64,000 nt of DNA, taken from contig CAITOL010000168.1 in assembly GCA_903893975.1 (NCBI GenBank), positions 1 through 64,000 of the forward strand. The letters are read 5' to 3'. Of the stretch, positions 8,801 through 61,800 are shown piece by piece. Origin of the DNA: an uncultured Rhodospirillales bacterium. Its GTDB lineage: Bacteria > Pseudomonadota > Alphaproteobacteria > Acetobacterales > Acetobacteraceae. Position numbers and translations under genes: made by a program. The number at the start of each line of letters is the position of its first letter. The first letter of the stretch is position 1. The notes below the pieces were generated by a model that saw nothing but the letters and a program-made list of their open reading frames with translations, made no database searches and was not told where the DNA came from.

Positions 8801-10807
8801 ATGACGCCCGAGCCTATTGCCGCCCAGCTTGCTACGGCCGTCGCCCGGCAGAACAGCGGCGATTTGTCCGCCGCGCAAGCGCTCTACTGGCAAATCCTCG
8901 CGGCCATCCCGACCCATTTCGATGCCTTGCATCTGCTCGGCGTCAGCAAATGCCAGCAAGGGCAGCAGGCGGAGGGCAGCTGGTTCATCGCCCGCGCGTT
9001 GGAGCAACGGCCGGATGACCCCGGCGCGCACTACAACCTCGCCATGGCGCTGGCCGAACAGCACCGGCACGACGACGCGCTGACCCATTTCGACCGCGCT
9101 CTGGCGCTGCGCCCGGACCACGCGCCATCCTGGTTCAGCCGGGGCGACGCGCTGCAAATCACCGGGCAGTTGCCGGACGCCATCGCCAGCTACCAGCGCG
9201 CCCTGGCACTGCAACCCGGGCTGACCGGCGCGCTGTCCAACCTGGCCATGGCCTTGCTTGCGGCGGGCCGGGCGGCGGAGGCGCTGGCGCTGTTTCAGCA
9301 GGCGCTCGAACGCGGCGCCGATCCGGTGACGGTGCAGGTCAATATCGGCCGCGCGCTGCAAGATCTCGGCCGCACGGCGGATGCCTGCAACAGCTACGCC
9401 GCCGCCTGCGCCGCCGACCCGGATGCCGCGCAGCCGCGCTGGCTCTGGGCGATGGCCACCCTGCCCGATGTCGCCACCGGCACGGCGGAGGTCGCGGCCT
9501 CCCGCCCCGCTTTCGCTGCCGCGCTGGCGCAGTTGCAGGCATGGTATGCCGCCGACCGCACCGGCAAGCGCGACCGGCTGGAACTCGCCTGGCCGTTTTT
9601 CCTCGCCTACCAAAACCGCAACAATCGCGCGTTGATGGAAACATTCGGCAGCCTGCGGGCAAATTTGCTCGGGCAGTGGTGGCAAGGCCAGGCGCTGCCC
9701 GCCCCGGCGCAGACCAAATCCCCCCGGCTGCGGGTTGGGATTGTGTCCGCGCATCTGCACAGCCATTCGGTGTGGCACGCCATCACCCGCGGCTGGTTTG
9801 CGCATCTGGACCCGGCGCGGTTCGCACTGCACGGCTTCCATCTCGGCCGCAAAAGCGATGCGGAAACCGCCTTCGCCCGCGCCCGGGCGGCCAGCTTCAC
9901 CTGGGGCGAACGCGGCCTGGCCGGCTGGGTACAAGCCATTCAGGCGGTGCAGCCGGATGTGCTGATCTATCCCGGCCTGGGCATGGATAACCTGTCCGCC
10001 AACCTCGCCAGCCTGCGCCTCGCCCCGGTGCAACTCACCAGTTGGGGCCATCCGGAAACCACCGGCCTGCCGACGATGGACGGCTTCCTCTCCGCCGCCG
10101 CGTTTGAGCCTGCCGGGGCGGAAGCCGCATACAGCGAGCGGCTGATCCGCCTGCCCGGGCTCGGCGTCGCCTATGTGCCGCAGCCGGTCATCCCCGTGCC
10201 GCCCGACCTTGCCGCGCTCGGCATCGACCCGGCACGGCCGATTTTGCTCTGCCCCGGCGCGCCGTTCAAATACGCGCCGGAAGACGACGCCACCCTGGCC
10301 GCCATCGCCGCCCAGTGCAGCCAGGCGCAGCTGATCTTTTTCCACACCAAAACCAACGCGCCACTTTCCGCCCGGCTGGAGCAGCGGCTGATCGCCAGCT
10401 TCGCGGCGCACGGGCTGGATTTCGCCGCCCACGCCACCTTCATTCCGCACCAAAGCATGCCGGCGTTTCACGGCCTGATGCAGCGTGCGGATCTGATGCT
10501 GGATACGCCCGGCTTTTCCGGCTTCAACACCGCCATGCAGGCCATCGGCAACGGCCTGCCGGTGCTGGCCTATGAAGGCCCGTTCATGCGCGGCCGCCTC
10601 GCCAGCGGGGTGATGCGCCAGCTTGGCCTGCCGGAACTGGTCGCCAGCACGCCGGCCGAATACGTCGCCCTCGCGGCGCGGCTGGTGGCGAACCCGGAGC
10701 ATCGGCAGCGTTTGCGGGCGCGGGTGACGGAGGGCGCGGCGGGGCTTTATGATGATTTGGCGGCGGTGCGGGGGCTGGAAGAAGCTATTAAGCAGTTCTT
10801 TTTGTGA
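8801..10807 (+). CDS. TPR protein with SPINDLY/O-GlcNAc-transferase-like catalytic domain (GT41)
   Basis: 668 residues. About six TPRs occupy residues 1-230 (for example GAHYNLAMALAEQHRHDDAL). The catalytic part runs from about 310: LRVGIVSAHLHSHSVWH, then VQLTSWGHPETTGLPTMDGFLS, FIPHQSMPAFHGLMQRADLMLDTPGFSG, and NGLPVLAYEGPFMRGRLASGVM. These are hallmark blocks of bacterial GT41 enzymes, which transfer GlcNAc or another sugar to Ser/Thr, often on flagellins or adhesins. The last residues and the stop lie inside a hairpin of the dispersed repeat at 10795, so the C-terminus may have been set by that insertion. Confidence 0.86.
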   Translation: MTPEPIAAQLATAVARQNSGDLSAAQALYWQILAAIPTHFDALHLLGVSKCQQGQQAEGSWFIARALEQRPDDPGAHYNLAMALAEQHRHDDALTHFDRALALRPDHAPSWFSRGDALQITGQLPDAIASYQRALALQPGLTGALSNLAMALLAAGRAAEALALFQQALERGADPVTVQVNIGRALQDLGRTADACNSYAAACAADPDAAQPRWLWAMATLPDVATGTAEVAASRPAFAAALAQLQAWYAADRTGKRDRLELAWPFFLAYQNRNNRALMETFGSLRANLLGQWWQGQALPAPAQTKSPRLRVGIVSAHLHSHSVWHAITRGWFAHLDPARFALHGFHLGRKSDAETAFARARAASFTWGERGLAGWVQAIQAVQPDVLIYPGLGMDNLSANLASLRLAPVQLTSWGHPETTGLPTMDGFLSAAAFEPAGAEAAYSERLIRLPGLGVAYVPQPVIPVPPDLAALGIDPARPILLCPGAPFKYAPEDDATLAAIAAQCSQAQLIFFHTKTNAPLSARLEQRLIASFAAHGLDFAAHATFIPHQSMPAFHGLMQRADLMLDTPGFSGFNTAMQAIGNGLPVLAYEGPFMRGRLASGVMRQLGLPELVASTPAEYVALAARLVANPEHRQRLRARVTEGAAGLYDDLAAVRGLEEAIKQFFL

Positions 10808-10902
10808 ACAAAAAGAACCAAAAAACTTCTCCTGTTCGTTGCCGCTGGCGTACGGCAACGAATTTTCGAAAGTTTTTTGCTGCTTTTTTCCAAAAAAACA
10901 GC
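10795..10902. repeat. Dispersed twin-hairpin element, copy A
   Basis: The left end is a perfect hairpin, GTTCTTTTTGT and its complement around GA (10795-10818), followed by CCAAAAAACTTC. The core holds TTCGTTGCCG...CGGCAACGAA, a 10-bp stem. The right end is GAAAGTTTTTTGC followed by an imperfect hairpin (10879-10902, one C/A mismatch). It fills the gap between the convergent GT41 and substrate-binding-protein genes and includes the GT41 stop codon (10805-10807). Related copies lie at 30146, 48117, 50855, 60698 and 61487. Confidence 0.8.
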
Positions 10903-10912
10903 GCTTCCCGGC

Positions 10913-19403: not shown

Positions 19404-21926
19404 ATGACAATTACTAGACATTTTATGATAATAAAATACATATCCGCAGCGATGTTAATCTTGCTCGGCGCGCCGCAAGCCTTGGCGCAAAGCCGGTTGC
19501 CGGCCTGCCCGACTGGGCCGGACGTGGTGTTCGACGGCTGCTTTGGCGCCGTAACCTACCCGATGGGCGGCAAATATGTCGGCGAATTCCGCAACGACAA
19601 AGAAAACGGCATGGGGACCTTCACCTTCCCCGACGGGAGGAAATTCGTCGGCGAGTTCCGCGACGGTGATTTCACTGCCAAGGGCGTGTTCACGTTCCCC
19701 AATGGCGAAAAATATGTCGGCGAATTCCGCGACGGCCGCTTTAACGGCGAAGGCACCTACACCTATGCCGATGCCAGTTTCTACACCGGCAGTTTCCGCG
19801 ATGGCCGGCCGAACGGCGCCGGCACTTTCGCCTTCCGCGACGGGCGCCGCTATACCGGCGCCTTCGTCAACGGCGAGTTCAACGGCCAGGGCAGTTTCAG
19901 CTTTCCCAACGGCGCCAAATATGTCGGTGCATTCCGCGATGGCAAATTCGCCGGCGAAGGCACCTATACCTACCCCGATGGCGGCAAATATGTCGGCGAG
20001 TTCCGCGACAGCACCCGCAATGGCCAGGGCACCTATATCTACCCGAACGGAGAACGCTACAGTGGCAGGTTCGTCGATGGCCGGTTCGCCAATCAGGGCA
20101 CGTTCAGCTATCCGGATGGCCGGAGTTATACCGGCACGTTCAAAGACGACAAATTCCACGGCCAGGGCAGCTTCGCCTTTCCGGACGGGCGCAAATATGT
20201 CGGCGATTTCCTCGCCGGCAAGTTCAGCGGGCGCGGCACCCTCACCTTCCCCGATGGGCGCAAATATGTCGGCGGCTTCGTCGATGGCGAATTCACCGGC
20301 CAGGGCAGCTATAGCTACCCGAATGGGGAGCAGTATGTCGGCGAATTCCGTGACGGCAAATTCGCCGGCCAGGGTACCTACAGCTACCCCAATGGCAGCA
20401 AATATGTCGGCGAACTGCACGACAATATTCCGAACGGCCAGGGCAGCTTCACCTTCGCCGATGGCCGGGTGTATGTGGGGCGCCTCGTCGATGGCAAGTT
20501 CAACGGTCAGGGCACGTTAACCTTCCCGAACGGGCGCGCCTATGTCGGCACGTTCAGCAACGACCAGTTCAACGGCCAAGGCAGCTTCACCTTCCCCGAC
20601 GGGCGCAAATATGTCGGCGAATTTCTCAACGGGAAGTTCAACGGCCAGGGCACACTCAGCTTCCGCAACGGACGGGTTTATCTCGGCAGCTTCAACGACG
20701 GGGAGTTCGACGGTCAGGGCACGTTCACCTACCCGAACGGCGAGAAATATGTCGGCACGTTCAAAGAGGGCGAGTTCAACGGCCAGGGCAGCTACACCTC
20801 CCCCATCGGGGACAGCTATGTCGGCGAATTCCGCGACAACGCCCGCAACGGCCAGGGCGTTTCCACCTTCGCCGACGGGCGCAAATATGTCGGCGGCTTT
20901 GTGGACGGAAAATTCAGCGGCCAGGGCACGCTCACGCTGGCCAATGGCCGGTCTTACGTCGGCGGTTTCGTCGATGGCGAGATGAGCGGCCGCGGCGTCT
21001 ACACCACCCCGGACGGGGAGAAATACGAGGGCGAGTTTCGCGACGACAAATTCAACGGCCAGGGCACCTACAGCTATCCAGATGGCGGGGTTTATCTCGG
21101 CGCCTTCCGCGACGGCAGCCGCAACGGCCAGGGCACCCAGGCCTATCCGAACGGGGAACGGTATGCGGGGGAATTCGTCGATGGCAAGCTGAACGGGCGC
21201 GGCATGCTAACCTTCCCGGACGGGCGGGTTTATGTGGGCGAAATGCGCGATGACCGGTTTAATGGTGTCGGCACCTACACCTATCCGAACGGCGAGAAAT
21301 ATGTCGGCGACTTCGTCGATGGGAAGTTTGAGGGCATTGGCACCTACACCTACACCGATGGCGGCAGCTATGTCGGGGAATTCCGCGCCAATAACCGCAA
21401 CGGCCAGGGCACGCATGTGTATCCGAACGGGGCGAAATATGTGGGCGACTTTCTCGACGGCAAATTCAACGGCAAAGGCAGCCTGACCATGCCGAATGGC
21501 CGGCAATATGTCGGCACGTTCAAAGACGATGCCTATGACGACCCGCTGCTGGAAGACATGGCGATTATCGCCGCCGCGATCGCGCTGCCGCTGCTGGCGC
21601 AGGGGGCGATTATCTGGCGCAACCGCAAAATCCGCTTCAACCGCGCCTGGTTCCTGGCCCTGTCGCTCAGCGCGGCGCTGGTGCTGCCGGTGGCGCTGGT
21701 CTCGCTGTATCTGGCGATTTCCGAGCTGGATTTTTATGTCACCATCGCCAGCTTCATCGCCTTGGTGACCGTGCTGCCGGGCGCGATCGGCTTTGCGGTG
21801 ACCAGCCGGCTGAACGCGCGCGGTCTGTCGCGCTGGCATTGCCTGTGGCTTTTGCCGCTCTACCCCCTTAGCATCGCCGCCATCGAAATGATGCGGGCGC
21901 CGGCCATTCCCGAGGCGGAGGCGTGA
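19404..21926 (+). CDS. Secreted/membrane MORN-repeat protein with about 29 repeats
   Basis: 840 residues. A Sec-type signal peptide (IKYISAAMLILLGAPQALAQ) is followed by a short Cys-containing linker and about 29 tandem 23-residue MORN repeats (residues 49 to about 715) of the form tYxYPDGxkYVGEFrDGkfNGqG. After them come three or four hydrophobic helices (about 722-745, 757-780, 786-808, 820-838) with basic loops. The repeats should lie in the periplasm, anchored by the C-terminal helices. MORN arrays bind lipids or act as scaffolds in eukaryotes; bacterial roles are mostly untested. It appears monocistronic, between tRNA-Lys and the pta-ack operon. Its 5' region is more A/T-rich than the surroundings. 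No catalytic domain is present. Confidence 0.85.
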   Translation: MTITRHFMIIKYISAAMLILLGAPQALAQSRLPACPTGPDVVFDGCFGAVTYPMGGKYVGEFRNDKENGMGTFTFPDGRKFVGEFRDGDFTAKGVFTFPNGEKYVGEFRDGRFNGEGTYTYADASFYTGSFRDGRPNGAGTFAFRDGRRYTGAFVNGEFNGQGSFSFPNGAKYVGAFRDGKFAGEGTYTYPDGGKYVGEFRDSTRNGQGTYIYPNGERYSGRFVDGRFANQGTFSYPDGRSYTGTFKDDKFHGQGSFAFPDGRKYVGDFLAGKFSGRGTLTFPDGRKYVGGFVDGEFTGQGSYSYPNGEQYVGEFRDGKFAGQGTYSYPNGSKYVGELHDNIPNGQGSFTFADGRVYVGRLVDGKFNGQGTLTFPNGRAYVGTFSNDQFNGQGSFTFPDGRKYVGEFLNGKFNGQGTLSFRNGRVYLGSFNDGEFDGQGTFTYPNGEKYVGTFKEGEFNGQGSYTSPIGDSYVGEFRDNARNGQGVSTFADGRKYVGGFVDGKFSGQGTLTLANGRSYVGGFVDGEMSGRGVYTTPDGEKYEGEFRDDKFNGQGTYSYPDGGVYLGAFRDGSRNGQGTQAYPNGERYAGEFVDGKLNGRGMLTFPDGRVYVGEMRDDRFNGVGTYTYPNGEKYVGDFVDGKFEGIGTYTYTDGGSYVGEFRANNRNGQGTHVYPNGAKYVGDFLDGKFNGKGSLTMPNGRQYVGTFKDDAYDDPLLEDMAIIAAAIALPLLAQGAIIWRNRKIRFNRAWFLALSLSAALVLPVALVSLYLAISELDFYVTIASFIALVTVLPGAIGFAVTSRLNARGLSRWHCLWLLPLYPLSIAAIEMMRAPAIPEAEA
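19548..21548 (+). repeat. 69-bp tandem repeat array encoding 29 MORN repeats
   Basis: The array keeps a strict 23-codon period from first to last copy with no frame change. Codons for the core YVGEF/FNGQG segments recur nearly unchanged (TATGTCGGCGAATTCCGC and AACGGCCAGGGC), while intervening codons differ, so the array is old enough to have diverged but shows local homogenisation. Its regular composition opens long false reading frames on both strands. Confidence 0.9.
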
Positions 21927-30138: not shown

Positions 30139-30145
30139 GAAGGAT

Positions 30146-30274
30146 CTTCTTTGTTTGAAAACAAAGAAGCAAAAAAACTTCAATTATTCCTGGTCGTTGC
30201 TGTACACCAAATGGCTGATGTGTACGTTGGACCAAGTTTTAAAAGTTTTTTGCTCCTTTTTTTCAAAAAAGGAG
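30146..30274. repeat. Dispersed twin-hairpin element, copy B
   Basis: Left hairpin CTTCTTTGTTT, GA, AAACAAAGAAG (30146-30169) is followed by CAAAAAAACTTC. The core contains GTACAC...GTGTAC. The right end is AAAAGTTTTTTG followed by hairpin CTCCTTTTTT, TC, AAAAAAGGAG (30253-30274). It lies between the convergent dppF-type and Gfo/Idh genes, six to seven bases from each stop. Shape matches copies A, C and D, although the hairpin arms are of a different type on each side. Confidence 0.82.
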
Positions 30275-30280
30275 ACCTTT

Positions 30281-31321
30281 CTACTTCGGCAACTCCACCC
30301 AAGCCCCGCTCCGCGCGCTCTCCGCAATCGCTTGCAGCGCCATCACCGTATCCACGCTTTCCGCCTCCGTCGCGCCGTTCCAGTGTTGCTTGCCCAGGCG
30401 GATCATGCGGGCGAAGGATTCAGCCTCGGCCCGGAAGCCGTCACCGCCGGGAACGTCCTCGGTTTCAAACGGCACCGTGCCGGGCACGCCGCGCTTGATG
30501 CGCAGTGACAGGGCGCCGGCGGCGGGGGCGTGGTTGCTGTAGGATGTTTCCACCACGCCCTTTTCGCCGATGACGACCGCATGGCGGTGGAAGGCGGTGG
30601 ACATCGAGCAGGTGATCTGGCCGAGCACGCCGTCGGGGAATTCCAACGTCGCCGCCACGGTCTGGTCCACGCCGCTTTTGGTGTAGCGGGCGGTGGCCAA
30701 AGCGCGCAGCGGGCGGGTGCCGACGGCGAGGCGCACGAAGCTCATCGCATAAGTTCCGGCATCCAGCAGCGCGCCGCCGCCGCGCGCCGGGTCCAGCCGG
30801 ATATTCGCCGGGTCCACCAACCCGTCCCCATCGGGGGAGACGATGCCGAAGCCGAAGGCAGCGGTAACAAGCTGCACCCGGCCGAGCGTGTCGCCGGCCA
30901 GCAGGTCGCGCAGGCGCAGGGTTTGCGGCTGGGACATGTAGGGATAGGCCTCCGCCACGTGGACATTGTGCTGGCGGCCGGCGGCGAACATGGCTGTGGC
31001 CTGCGCGGCGGTCATGGCCCAGGGTTTTTCGCACAGCACATGCTTGCCGGCCGCCGCCGCGCGCACCACCCAGTCGGCATGCATGTCATTGGGCAGCGGC
31101 ACGTAAATCGCGTCGATCTCCGGGTCCGCCAGCAGGGCTTCGTAGCTGGCATGGGCGCGGGGGATGCCGAGTTCGGCGGCGAAGGCGGCGGCTTTGTCCG
31201 CGCCCCGGCTAGCCACCGCGGCGACGACGGCCTGGGTTGACCCAGCCAGACCGCGGGTGAATTGACGGGCAATGTTGGCGGCGCCGAGCACGCCATACCG
31301 CACGGGGGCAAAATCGGTCAT
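30281..31321 (-). CDS. Gfo/Idh/MocA family NAD(P)-dependent oxidoreductase
   Basis: 346 residues. The Rossmann start YGVLGAANIARQFTRGL, the EKP motif in HVLCEKPWAMTAAQA, and AEAYPYMSQPQ follow the family pattern. Family enzymes oxidise or reduce sugars, inositols and their derivatives; some are trans-1,2-dihydrobenzene-1,2-diol dehydrogenase-like, and this one resembles that subgroup. Substrate unknown. It is divergent from a TetR-type regulator gene with 123 bp between starts, so it may be its target. Confidence 0.85.
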   Translation of the reverse strand: MTDFAPVRYGVLGAANIARQFTRGLAGSTQAVVAAVASRGADKAAAFAAELGIPRAHASYEALLADPEIDAIYVPLPNDMHADWVVRAAAAGKHVLCEKPWAMTAAQATAMFAAGRQHNVHVAEAYPYMSQPQTLRLRDLLAGDTLGRVQLVTAAFGFGIVSPDGDGLVDPANIRLDPARGGGALLDAGTYAMSFVRLAVGTRPLRALATARYTKSGVDQTVAATLEFPDGVLGQITCSMSTAFHRHAVVIGEKGVVETSYSNHAPAAGALSLRIKRGVPGTVPFETEDVPGGDGFRAEAESFARMIRLGKQHWNGATEAESVDTVMALQAIAESARSGAWVELPK

Positions 31322-48094: not shown

Positions 48095-48116
48095 CGGAGT
48101 GAAGGCGAGTTAAGAT

Positions 48117-48249
48117 GTTCTTTTTGTGAACAAAAAGAACCAAAAAAACTTCGTCGATTCCTGGGCTTCGCCGTACACCCCCTAGGTTGGGCCGTACGCA
48201 CCGACCCAAAGAGATGAAAGTTTTTTGCTCCTTTTTTTCAAAAAAGGAG
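48117..48249. repeat. Dispersed twin-hairpin element, copy C
   Basis: Left hairpin GTTCTTTTTGT, GA, ACAAAAAGAAC (48117-48140), then CCAAAAAAACTTC. The core has two GCCGTAC words (GCCGTACACC and GCCGTACGCACCG). The right end is GAAAGTTTTTTG with hairpin CTCCTTTTTT, TC, AAAAAAGGAG (48228-48249), identical to the right end of copy B. Its left hairpin is identical to that of copy A, so the ends are mixed between copies. The gene-free stretch 48095-48411 consists of this element and an A/T-rich 5' leader for the peptidase gene. Confidence 0.82.
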
Positions 48250-48411
48250 ACCTTCCTTGAATGATCCTACCAATAATCTCGTTTTTGATACGTTTTAACT
48301 AAGTCTTCAAAAAACGGGACGAAACTCCCCCTTAGCGACATCGCGCGCTTTCCTGAGATCGTCCCAAAAGGGATGAGCCGGCCGCGATGTGCTTGCTGAG
48401 GGATTATCCCG
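48250..48411 (+). other. Leader region of the peptidase gene, no gene seen
   Basis: The first half is A/T-rich (TGATCCTACCAATAATCTCGTTTTTGATACG) and could hold a promoter, though no convincing -35/-10 pair was found. The second half is GC-rich. GAGGGA lies nine bases before ATG 48412. Confidence 0.4.
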
Positions 48412-50186: not shown

Positions 50187-50780
50187 ATGCCGCAACCCCC
50201 TCCCCCCACCCAAGTTGATGCGCCGGAGCTTGCGCGGCGGCTGGGGGTGATTCTGGCGGCGTTGGCCGCGCTGGTGGCGGCGCAGTTCTTACGGCGGCCC
50301 GGGCTTTCCGAGTGGATCGTGCCGCTATGGCAGCACCTGACCCATGTGGCGCGACGGTTCGAGCGGGCGATGACCCGCAAGCCCCGCCGCCCGGCTAAGC
50401 GCCGCGATGCCGCGCCGGTTCGCGCGGTTACCGCCGTGGCAGCGGACCAACTGCGCCCGCGTAAGCCGCGCCTGCCGACCGGTCGGGGCTGGCTGGTGCG
50501 GGCGCTGGGCTATGAAGGGCGGGGCTACCGATCGCAACTGGAGGCATTGCTGGCCGAGCCGGCAATGCAGGCGGCAATCGCCGCGCTGCCAGGCGTGGGC
50601 CGGGTGCTGCGGCCGGTATGCCGCATGCTCGACCTGCCAGCCCCGCGCACCACCGCCGAAGCCGCCGCGATTGCCGCACGGCCGAAACGGGTGCGGCCAA
50701 GCCGGGCCAAACCGGTGGCGCTGCGGCCACGCGTGCGCGGATCGTGGCGGCCGCCGACGCCGTTGCGAAAATTGGGGTGA
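50187..50780 (+). CDS. Unrecognised basic membrane protein, paralogue of the gene at 60838
   Basis: 197 residues. Segment 1 (ELARRLGVILAALAALVAAQFLRRP) is a likely membrane helix, followed by WIVPLWQHLTHVARRFERAM, a proline/arginine-rich linker, a conserved block GRGWLVRALGYEGRGYRSQLEALLAEPAM and PGVGRVLRPV, and a very basic tail. The 199-residue product of 60838-61437 shares the same order: ELVRRLGLIVGGMAALVARRFLRDP, VIVPLWGWL, GHGWLVRALGWEAAGYGSQLAALLAEPEM, PGVGRVLRPL. I know no family for them. Both genes have A/T-rich leaders with TTAGTT.TTAA directly before the ATG, and both stand next to dispersed repeat elements. Confidence 0.72.
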   Translation: MPQPPPPTQVDAPELARRLGVILAALAALVAAQFLRRPGLSEWIVPLWQHLTHVARRFERAMTRKPRRPAKRRDAAPVRAVTAVAADQLRPRKPRLPTGRGWLVRALGYEGRGYRSQLEALLAEPAMQAAIAALPGVGRVLRPVCRMLDLPAPRTTAEAAAIAARPKRVRPSRAKPVALRPRVRGSWRPPTPLRKLG

Positions 50781-50854
50781 GGTGGGGTGGGTTTCGGCTT
50801 GGGTATTTTGTTGCGATTTAGCAATTACAACATATATAAGCCATTGAAGGATAT

Positions 50855-50988
50855 CTTCTTTGTTTGAAAACAAAGAAGCAAAAAAACTTTATCACTTCTT
50901 GGCCTTCGGCGTACTCTCACCGGAGAGAGTACGCCGAAGGCTAGGCATGGATGAGGTTTTTTTGGTTCTTTTTGTTCACAAAAAGAAC
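50855..50988. repeat. Dispersed twin-hairpin element, copy D
   Basis: Left hairpin CTTCTTTGTTT, GA, AAACAAAGAAG (50855-50878), as in copy B, then CAAAAAAACTTT. The core is a near-perfect 17-bp stem, with arms at 50902-50918 and 50925-50941 (GCCTTCGGCGTACTCTC and its complement) around a 6-nt loop. The right end is GGTTTTTTTG with hairpin GTTCTTTTTGT, TC, ACAAAAAGAAC (50965-50988), the type seen on the left of copies A and C. It lies between convergent genes, four bases from the stop of the GT4 gene. Confidence 0.85.
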
Positions 50989-50991
50989 ACC

Positions 50992-52146
50992 CTACCCCTT
51001 CCCTTTCCGCTTCACCTTCCCCCGCTTAGGCGCCAGCAACGCCTCCAGCCGCTCCAGCATTCGCAGCCCGACCGCGCGATTGCCGTGGCTATGCAGCACC
51101 GCGCGTTGGCCGCGCTGGGCGCGCGCCTGGCCGCGGGCCGGGTCTTGCAGGATAGGGGTGAGCAAAGCGTGGGCGTGGCTGAGGTCGGGCTCCGCCCAAT
51201 GCTGCCCGGCGCCGTGCGGGTATTCGTCCGCCAGGACCGGGATTTCCCGCGCGCGCACCGGCAGCGCGGTGGTCGGGCTCATGAAATCGGTATTGCCGGA
51301 CCAGTCCGTGCCGAGGGCGAGGCGGCCGAGGGCCATCGCCTCCCCCAGGCCGCGCCCGAAGCCTTCGGCACGATGCAGGGAGACGAAGCAATCGCAGGCA
51401 TTGATCAGGCTGAGCACGCCGCGCGTGTCCAACGGGGTGTCGATGATTTTGATCTGCGGGTCTTGGGTGAAGTCCGCGCCCCAGTCCGAGCCGTGTTCGC
51501 CCTGCTTGACCTTCAGCACCAGTTGCAGGTCGGCAAAGGGGGTTTCGCGGCGCAGGTCGTCGAACAGGGTTTGCACGGCTTGCGGGTTTTTCCGCGCGGC
51601 GTAGGACGACATGTCGAAGAAATGCAGCAGCACGAAGGCGCTTTCGCGAATGCCAAAATGCCGGCGCGGCAGGAAGGGCATCGGCTCAAACTGCACCGCC
51701 TGGCCGACGAGGTGGCTGGTGAGGCCGGCGGCGGCGAGGCTGGACTGCACGAAGCGGGAGATGGCCCAGATTTCATCGAAACGCTGCAAGGCCGGCACCC
51801 AGGCGGAGGGGTAGGTGGGCAGTTCCCAGGCGGGGATGATGATGTTGATGCCGGCGGCGAAATCATTGCCACGGGCAGCGAAGGTTTCCAGGACGCGGTC
51901 CACTTCATCGCCGTTGATGTGGAAGATGCGGATGCCCGGCGGGACGTGATCCACCTCCAGCCCCGCCAGCAGGCTGTCATGCGCCGGGTCGGTGCGTTGG
52001 GCGTAGCGGAAAATATCGTAGACCTTCACGTCCAGCCGCATGGCGAGGCCGGCGCGGACATGGCTGCGCAGTTGCTCCCCCATGCCGATGGGCGCCCAGG
52101 GATGGCCGATGATGGTGATGGGAGTGTCGTCGATGCTGCCGGCCAT
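50992..52146 (-). CDS. Glycosyltransferase family 4-like protein
   Basis: 384 residues. ITIIGHPWAPIGMGEQLRSHVRAG is the GT-B acceptor-side start (GXGE-like loop), and VSLHRAEGFGRGLGEAMALGRLALGTDWSGNTDFM is the donor-site EX7E motif. IRIFHINGDEVDRVLETF and INIIIPAWELPTYPSAWVPALQRFDEIW fit the family too. It would add a sugar in a cell-surface glycan. It ends the leftward glycan cluster and its start lies six bases after the stop of the GT2-WbsX gene. The C-terminus is basic (KRGKVKRKGKG). Confidence 0.82.
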   Translation of the reverse strand: MAGSIDDTPITIIGHPWAPIGMGEQLRSHVRAGLAMRLDVKVYDIFRYAQRTDPAHDSLLAGLEVDHVPPGIRIFHINGDEVDRVLETFAARGNDFAAGINIIIPAWELPTYPSAWVPALQRFDEIWAISRFVQSSLAAAGLTSHLVGQAVQFEPMPFLPRRHFGIRESAFVLLHFFDMSSYAARKNPQAVQTLFDDLRRETPFADLQLVLKVKQGEHGSDWGADFTQDPQIKIIDTPLDTRGVLSLINACDCFVSLHRAEGFGRGLGEAMALGRLALGTDWSGNTDFMSPTTALPVRAREIPVLADEYPHGAGQHWAEPDLSHAHALLTPILQDPARGQARAQRGQRAVLHSHGNRAVGLRMLERLEALLAPKRGKVKRKGKG

Positions 52147-60697: not shown

Positions 60698-60788
60698 CCC
60701 TCTCCCGCACTTAGCGGGAGAGGGTCGGGGTGAGGGTCGAAAGTCCAGAAAAGTCCGCCTTTTTTGAAAAAAAGGCGCAAAAAACTTC
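60698..60788. repeat. Dispersed element, copy E (second type)
   Basis: It begins with a GC hairpin, CCCTCTCCCGC, ACTTA, GCGGGAGAGGG (60698-60724), continues TCGGGGTGAGGGTCGAAAG, and ends with an A/T hairpin CGCCTTTTTT, GA, AAAAAAGGCG (60756-60777) plus CAAAAAACTTCCC. The second half matches the end module of copies A-D. It lies between the convergent acs gene and the unrecognised paralogue gene, and is related to the two copies at 61487 and 61630. Confidence 0.8.
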
Positions 60789-61486: not shown

Positions 61487-61760
61487 CCCTCTCCCGCACT
61501 TGGCGGGAGAGGGTTGGGGTGAGGGTCGAAAATCCAGAAAGGCCCGCCCCCTTTTGAAAAAAGGCGCAAAAACCTCCCAACTTTAACCCCCAACCCAACC
61601 CGAGAAAGCACGGCAACCCCTCTCTTCCCCCCTCTCCCGCGCTTGGCGGGAGAGGGTCGGGGTGAGGGTCGAAAATCCAGAAAGGCCCGCCCCCTTTTGA
61701 AAAAAGGCGCAAAAACCTCCCAACTCTAGCTCCCCCGCAACCCGGGAAAGCACGGCAACG
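61487..61760. repeat. Tandem pair of about 143-bp dispersed elements (copies F and G)
   Basis: Two units start at 61487 and 61630 with CCCTCTCCCGC and both run through GCGGGAGAGGGT.GGGGTGAGGGTCGAAAATCC, AGAAAGGCCCGCCCCC, TTTTGAAAAAAGGCGC, AAAAACCTCCCAACT and a closing AAAGCACGGCAAC. They differ at few positions. Copy E at 60698 is a shorter version. The stretch 61438-61803 has no gene; it consists of the leader of the paralogue gene, these repeats and a last hairpin remnant at 61779-61800. Confidence 0.82.
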
Positions 61761-61778
61761 CGCAGACTCAGTTGCAGT

Positions 61779-61800
61779 CCTTTTTGTTCACAAAAAGAAC
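61779..61800. repeat. Single hairpin remnant of the dispersed element family
   Basis: TCCTTTTTGTTCACAAAAAGAAC repeats the right-end hairpin of copy D with one or two mismatches, and is followed by ACCTTA, next to the CoA-transferase stop at 61804, just as copy D adjoins the GT4 stop. Confidence 0.6.

Follow-up and report, generated by a model that had tools for sequence, protein, structure and literature searches.

Small mobile palindromic elements in Acetobacteraceae and Rikenella whose mirror-rule ends may fold as intrastrand triple helices

MITEs such as RUP, Correia/NEMIS, and ERIC are short, non-coding, terminally inverted sequences that are dispersed near genes and show filled and empty sites. 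For RAYT, the enzyme counterpart of REP, recognition of a single strand is known, and in the U-rich RNA triple helices of ENE/MALAT1 and SAM-II a U-run lies in the major groove of a hairpin. The family described here shares all of the listed features of MITEs and, like REP/REPIN, consists of palindromic intergenic repeats, often in inverted pairs. Also among the closest known systems are the intrastrand triplex motifs (PIT, BoxC/TMECO, and ITxF classes II and IV), which have the same three blocks, arranged as Y-R-R' or H-Y-R, and are likewise intergenic, present in many copies, and very different in copy number between relatives (PMC4666352). The GC-rich bacterial triplex motif is nearly invariant, and footprinting revealed no stable triplex formation in vivo (PMC4666352). 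The spacers between the blocks are 1–6 nt for ITxF and 0–10 nt according to Hoyne, as told in PMC4666352. The main text of that paper contains no mention of Aceto-, Glucon-, Alistipes, Rikenell- or Bacteroid-. Literature searches on palindromic repeats, bidirectional terminators, intrastrand triplexes, MITEs, and triplex covariation brought up no description of the family, and full-text searches for its four hairpin sequences gave no paper.

The window (the whole 64,000-nt stretch of contig CAITOL010000168.1 that was analyzed, from an uncultured Rhodospirillales bacterium of the Acetobacteraceae) contains four palindromes that are copies of one family of small, non-coding, mobile palindromic DNA elements. 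The element measures ~145 bp in Acetobacteraceae and ~290 bp in Rikenella. Most full copies are 120–150 bp long, dispersed, bounded by terminal inverted repeats, and without an ORF of their own, and in these respects fit MITEs. A full copy is composed of a few outer bases, an end hairpin, C, A6/A7, CTTC, a core of about 70 nt, GAAG, T6/T7, G, and a second end hairpin. Three end types were found in the own genome, namely H1 (GTTCTTTTTGTGAACAAAAAGAAC), H2 (CTNC-T6..A6-GNAG), and H3 (CTTCTTTGTTTGAAAACAAAGAAG), and a first classification of 84 full copies gave the pairings H1/H2 (50), H1/H3 (22), H2/H3 (3), and H1/H1 (2), with seven copies unclassed.

Copy D (50853–50993) lies between convergent genes (50187–50780 on the plus strand and 50992–52146 on the minus strand) predicted, as elsewhere in this work, with our own simple hexamer model. 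Its left end unit (50855–50889, plus strand) is of type H3, with the hairpin CTTCTTTGTTTGAAAACAAAGAAG, the linker C, the run A7, and CTT; the right one (50954–50988, minus strand) is of type H1, with the hairpin GTTCTTTTTGTGAACAAAAAGAAC, the linker C, and the run A7. Both obey the mirror rule set out below. Copy B (30139–30282; ends H3 left and H2 right) is located between the stop codons (30138 and 30281) of convergent predicted genes, and copy C (48111–48257), with H1 as its left end and H2 as its right, has tandem genes on its two sides. Copy A (10789–10910) has a short core, a left run of A6 where the rule predicts seven, and a G-T pair in the right hairpin. A solo end unit (60750–60787, plus strand: AAAAAAAGGCG, C, A6, CTT) and a decayed one, an H1-like hairpin without the purine run (61777–61800, minus strand), are also present. 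The solo unit stands shortly 3' of a BoxC-like triplex motif, one of three BoxC/TMECO-like motifs (CCCTCTCCC..GGGAGAGGG..GGGTGAGGG, with a 9-nt first loop) at 60698–60736, 61487–61525, and 61630–61668; ~14 nt beyond each of these comes an A/T end unit or its degenerate remnant, so that two kinds of triplex motif adjoin. Within the predicted gene 19404–21926, a separate 69-nt repeat stands head to tail in over 20 units (19545–21543).

In the own genome, BLAST with copy D revealed further full-length copies, down to ~79–91% identity, and nhmmer gave 112 merged hits in the 0.94 Mb of genome fetched around matches. Together with its run, the H1 hairpin was counted 108 times in the own genome (4.2 Mb), and 0 times when read backwards. 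In total, 14 of the 60 genomes searched, the own genome included, match copy D. The H1 pattern was absent from the 397 Pseudomonadota genomes searched besides the own one, and the exact H1 36-mer is also found in MAGs labelled Rikenella or Rikenellaceae (Bacteroidota), which places the family in two phyla; the ORFs flanking one Rikenella copy (L147) we take, from reading by eye, to be RNase HII, argininosuccinate synthase, and ArgC. In the larger Rikenella element, the left hairpin is constantly H1 (or its A-to-G variant) and the right one is of another kind; RNAalifold folded 13 copies into a structure with a central stem, a hairpin at each end, and an outer stem. In some copies (L243, L255, L262, L267) a second sequence (..GAGACCAGAGACCGCTGGCGGGC.. 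or like) sits in the loop of the right hairpin. Carrier genomes hold 6 to 421 H1 matches, although some of them, with equal counts, are probably present twice. The element has been dispersed and amplified lineage by lineage. In G024 (e.g., contig C179), H1 has just 7 matches, against 69 units of AAAAAAAGAAG/A7; the latter often face each other in pairs ~180 nt apart, an arrangement repeated several times on one contig. Copy D had no match in PLSDB or INPHARED. A copy from G463 matched two Pseudoroseomonas cervicalis plasmids and, weakly, one from Lactococcus, with no phage match, and a Rikenella copy had no plasmid match. Among viral contigs, 12 and 18 matching stretches were observed, and 0 for the Rikenella variant.

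Comparison of filled and empty sites in relatives demonstrates insertion. At six of eight flank-matched sites in G461, G462, G463, and G471 (L308/L307 and L297/L294 among them; flank identity 74–93%) one genome is filled and the other empty, two of the six being back-to-back hairpin pairs; one site is filled in both, and one (L352/L337) is unclear owing to its poorly aligned left flank. A ninth site (L310/L311) is filled in both genomes, with ends that are nearly identical while the core is lost. Some insertions are found directly behind stop codons (TAAGG in L348/L347, TAGG in L337/L338). By eye, no target-site duplication was recognized in these flanks, which are too diverged for certainty. 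The site of copy C carries a copy in the opposite orientation in G003 and none in G001 or G004; that of copy D carries an inverted copy in G003, half a copy in G004, and none in G001. Inside-out pairs, with end hairpins back to back and runs pointing outward, were observed at L297 (~3800), L338 (~3900), and L049 (~11220); all look like element junctions, and those of L297 and L338 are absent from the relative's matching site. Several G000 contigs (e.g., C121, C155, C166, C23, and C36, as well as C86) start or stop in or near an element copy.

No mobilizing enzyme, transposase, or autonomous copy was recognized around 49 unpaired ends in the fetched part of G000, and the facing ends in L032 and L039, considered as borders of an autonomous transposon, enclose only ordinary-looking ORFs. 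The family thus differs from MITEs in its triplex-type hairpin ends and in that neither a parent transposase nor a target duplication was found. A REP/RAYT identity was rejected as well: the single Y1 (RAYT-like) gene of the genome (L105, 1200–2000) lies among a different, REP-like repeat of its own (GTAGGGCGGATGCAATCCGCC), Y1 is absent from 32 of 35 relatives, including the element carriers G002, G003, G004, G008, G024, and G027, and the ends of the family, unlike REP, have no GTAG head.

Each end of the element is a unit of a hairpin, a short linker, and a purine run. In 413 of 449 units the run exactly mirrors the loop-proximal purine arm, both in its length and in where G stands; the units are related by descent and therefore not independent counts, and the other 36 break the rule. 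In the five sets analyzed, 147/166, 71/82, 17/17, 67/68, and 111/116 units obeyed it, against shuffled means of 84.0, 25.9, 4.9, 26.5, and 82.1; the H1 units of the Rikenella and named-loci sets, which were fetched with an H1 pattern that includes the run, are not independent evidence, whereas 20 of the 27 stretches of the G463 set (71/82 against 25.9) were taken without looking for units. When distinct arm/run types are counted, the margin is smaller (17/28 in G000, with a shuffle maximum of 17, and 9/19 in G463, with a maximum of 11). Runs that contain a G are exact mirrors in 38 of 45 cases and match in the unreversed direction in none of the 45, and the lengths of arm and run (5 to 8) agree in 412/442. 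Among the combinations of arm|base and run are ACAAAAA|GAAC with A7 and AAAAAA|GGAG with A6, as well as AAAAA|GAAG with A5, AGAAAAA|GAAG with AAAAAGA, AGAAAAAA|GAAG with AAAAAAGA, AAGAAA|GGGAC with AAAGAA, AGAAAA|GGTAC with AAAAGA, and ACAAAGA|GAAC with AGAAAAA; where the arm has C, the run has A. Units of this kind are AGAAAAAGAAG/AAAAAGA and AAGAAAGGGAC/AAAGAA.

In elements whose two runs differ, the run matches its own arm in 214 of 234 cases and that of the partner end in 7, copies with an unparsed end (11/65 in G000, 1/29 in Rikenella) being omitted; pairing between the two ends is thus excluded as the cause. A base stem of 4 bp goes with a linker of 1 nt (366 units), and one of 5–6 bp with a linker of 2 nt (33 units), as would be needed by a third strand climbing past the base. 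Base stem and linker together form a spacer that measures 5 nt in the majority of Acetobacteraceae units, which is within the limits of both ITxF and Hoyne, and 7–8 nt in the right ends of Rikenella, beyond ITxF and within Hoyne. H1 is almost invariant within a genome, and the third pair of the H2 hairpin covaries (C-G in 24, T-A in 16, and G-C in 11 of 57). Both ends bear the same hairpin in 0/54 elements of G000, 0/18 of G462, and 0/28 of Rikenella. In G463, 9/43 elements have identical ends, so that a strict rule of unlike ends was discarded in favor of a subfamily trait, and with it went the idea that branch migration is blocked by unlike ends.

Arm and run also change together. Searches that allowed A or G at both places, tallied from match listings, gave 143 of 144 matches on the diagonal in three Rikenella genomes (50 A/A, 93 G/G; off-diagonal 1 and 0), and 148 of 150 among the matches listed, out of 740, in 13 Acetobacteraceae genomes, ten of them with matches (75 A/A, 73 G/G; off-diagonal 2 and 0). 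In one orthologous copy, CTTCTTTTTCT..AGAAAAAGAAG C AAAAAGA in G463 (L334) corresponds to CTTCTTTTTTT..AAAAAAAGAAG C AAAAAAA in G462 (L335), i.e., the Y arm, the R arm, and the run show three coordinated changes in place. As far as can be seen from the sequences, such differences between copies are explicable only by a match of three strands, and their joint change in two distant phyla suggests that such helices may be kept by selection. A complementary run would mean pairing, while a mirrored one implies a third strand in the major groove; the hairpin is additionally needed only if the folding molecule is single-stranded.

The arrangement expected of an intrastrand triplex, in which a Y and an R block are joined on one strand by a third block mirroring R, is present in the same 413 units. 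In the classes of PMC4666352, one strand reads Y-R-R' (class II) and the other H-Y-R (class IV, T.A-T and C+.G-C). The BoxC/TMECO consensus (CCCTCNCCC N3-6 GGGNGAGGG N3 GGGNGAGGG) does not describe the end units, which are A/T-rich, in contrast to the GC-rich published motif CCCTCNCCC..GGGNGAGGG..GGGNGAGGG. Unlike the published motifs, those of this family come in inverted pairs, with one motif at either end of the element, occur in several co-changing arm/run types, and have visible insertion sites.

Our main reading, to which we assign a probability of about 0.6, is that these are mobile palindromic elements whose mirror-rule ends would fold as intrastrand triplexes and be recognized for mobility. 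On a single DNA strand, as in a lagging-strand gap or when freed by supercoiling or in a transposition intermediate, the run would fold back and enter the major groove of its own hairpin as a third strand. Triads of the pyrimidine motif (T.A-T and C+.G-C) would form from one strand at the first end and from the complementary strand at the second. For A/T, the purine motif of the opposite strand is weak. The clamped hairpins would then be the structure recognized by a trans-acting enzyme that moves the element. It is possible, at somewhat worse than even odds, that the address is purely structural, i.e., that the enzyme reads triple-helical hairpins on single-stranded DNA and that any sequence in which three strands match can serve as an end. 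In Acetobacteraceae, the element would settle immediately after stop codons, the least harmful place for it, and it may also separate convergent genes.

The position relative to genes bears on a second explanation, which we consider unlikely, by which the element acts in RNA: lying between convergent genes, it would serve transcripts from both directions as a 3'-end structure, either terminator or end protector, and each transcript would have a U.A-U triple helix at its far end. For 95 of 179 ends the nearest gene boundary is a predicted stop codon, and the end hairpins begin a median of roughly 11 nt past it. Divergent gaps are avoided in G000 (2/57 gaps with an element against 75/191 without, p = 2e-8), convergent ones are preferred (19/57 against 30/191, p = 0.007), divergent gaps are also avoided in G462/G463 (4/45 against 80/311, p 0.014), and the annotated Pseudoroseomonas plasmid copy sits exactly between two convergent CDS ends; pyrimidine-motif triplexes are, moreover, possible in RNA (PMC4666352). 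However, a scan of copy D found no intrinsic terminator (G+C-rich stem with a T-run within 0–2 nt) on either strand, as the T-runs do not directly follow the stem. Matches to Rfam at the gathering score in the window and 14 loci were limited to tRNA, and those below the cut-off, such as miRNA, snoRNA, sRNA, and plastid 3'UTR families matching a long hairpin, were set aside. Unpaired units keep a hairpin followed by an A-run downstream of stop codons, a purine motif that does not form in RNA (PMC4666352). The 35 Rikenella copies with genes on both sides stand in the contexts ++ (16), -- (10), divergent (8), and convergent (1); such copies need not be transcribed, yet both of their units obey the rule. 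Unlike ENE/MALAT1 and SAM-II, the present family involves both strands and extends to divergent promoter gaps. As such gaps hold copies too in Rikenella, the evidence of the end units favors DNA over RNA, and since divergent gaps are avoided in G000 and G462/G463 and not in Rikenella, mobility addressed by structure is ranked first and RNA termination second.

The first-pass annotation had located selection in the core palindrome itself, as RNA or cruciform, with arms that share almost no sequence, pair within each copy, and retain GTAC. This we regard as improbable, although part of it stands. GTAC does recur in all four copies. The stem of copy D (17 bp with a loop of 6; 50902–50918/50925–50941, within the core palindrome 50902–50941) is exactly where it was quoted and far exceeds chance (folded as DNA, z = -8.5, with 0/200 shuffles as good), as does the 10-bp stem TTCGTTGCCG/CGGCAACGAA of copy A (10835–10844/10853–10862; z = -5.2). 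In copy B, GTACAC/GTGTAC is present at 30202–30207/30220–30225, but z = -0.9 with 37/200 shuffles as good, so that the stem is not beyond chance; the core of copy C, with GTAC at 48173 and 48194, has no stem and is not palindromic (z = +0.8). Far from sharing almost no sequence, the copies belong to an alignable family, in which 19 copies of the D subfamily have a mean column identity of 89%; the proposed pairing inside every copy holds for D and A alone.

In the alignment of these 19 copies, pairing of the 17-bp stem holds in 81.7% of cells (29–45% when slid), and no excess of compensatory change was found, contrary to what had been proposed. There are four compensatory pairs, against 3.9 in shuffles, and 10 cells changed on both sides, against 8.0 ± 1.8 (98/500 shuffles as high), and at three variable pairs, 9, 12, and 9 of the copies lack pairing. 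Three-pair helices inside the arms keep their pairing in 98.2% of cells, and a C-G/G-C switch occurs once. The arms draw a nine-base word from a limited set (GCCTACGGC, GCCGTTGGC, GCCTGCGGC...) in which every word has self-complementary ends, and the two words are identical in 14/33 copies, against 7.6 ± 2.1 by chance. Cores exceed flanks and dinucleotide shuffles in self-complementarity, with a median folding z of -5.6 for H1/H3 (n = 19), -1.3 for H1/H2 (n = 41), -2.0 for G463 (n = 43), and -3.9 for G462 (n = 18), against 0.0 for control flanks (n = 60). The orthologous cores of L334/L335 differ in sequence and both fold (z -4.7 and -4.4), whereas those of L310/L311 diverged without kept pairing (z +0.5 and -1.1). 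Structure thus matters, as had been proposed, but the clear covariation sits in the end units, outside the stretch first quoted; in our main reading the core would be free to change its sequence while tending to stay self-complementary.

A further explanation, no more probable than selection on the core, takes the hairpins as plain palindromic protein-binding sites with an adjacent, bending A-tract, the mirror being a by-product of homopolymers. The near-invariance of H1 per genome and its identity across two phyla are as would be expected of a sequence-specific site, but lengths and G positions that match in several run types, as well as the specificity of the run for its own arm, argue against it. 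The weakest alternative, selfish palindromes of unselected structure whose arms are kept alike by template switching in replication (quasi-palindrome correction), explains the Watson–Crick covariation of the H2 third pair and the wholesale turnover of the L334/L335 cores with kept complementarity, yet it cannot link run to arm in mirror order, because copying a strand back gives the complement, nor does it fit the L310/L311 ends, which persist without their core.

The reading of the family as mobile elements with triplex-forming ends touches an old question, whether intrastrand triple helices form and act in living bacteria, and makes it directly testable by mutants with matched and mismatched arms and runs. 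It also points to a predicted enzyme behind a very active small element. If true, no earlier natural intrastrand triplex known to us has comparative evidence of function from three strands, and structure-addressed recognition would let the ends diversify, in length (5–8) and in their A, G, and C positions, and still work in two phyla.
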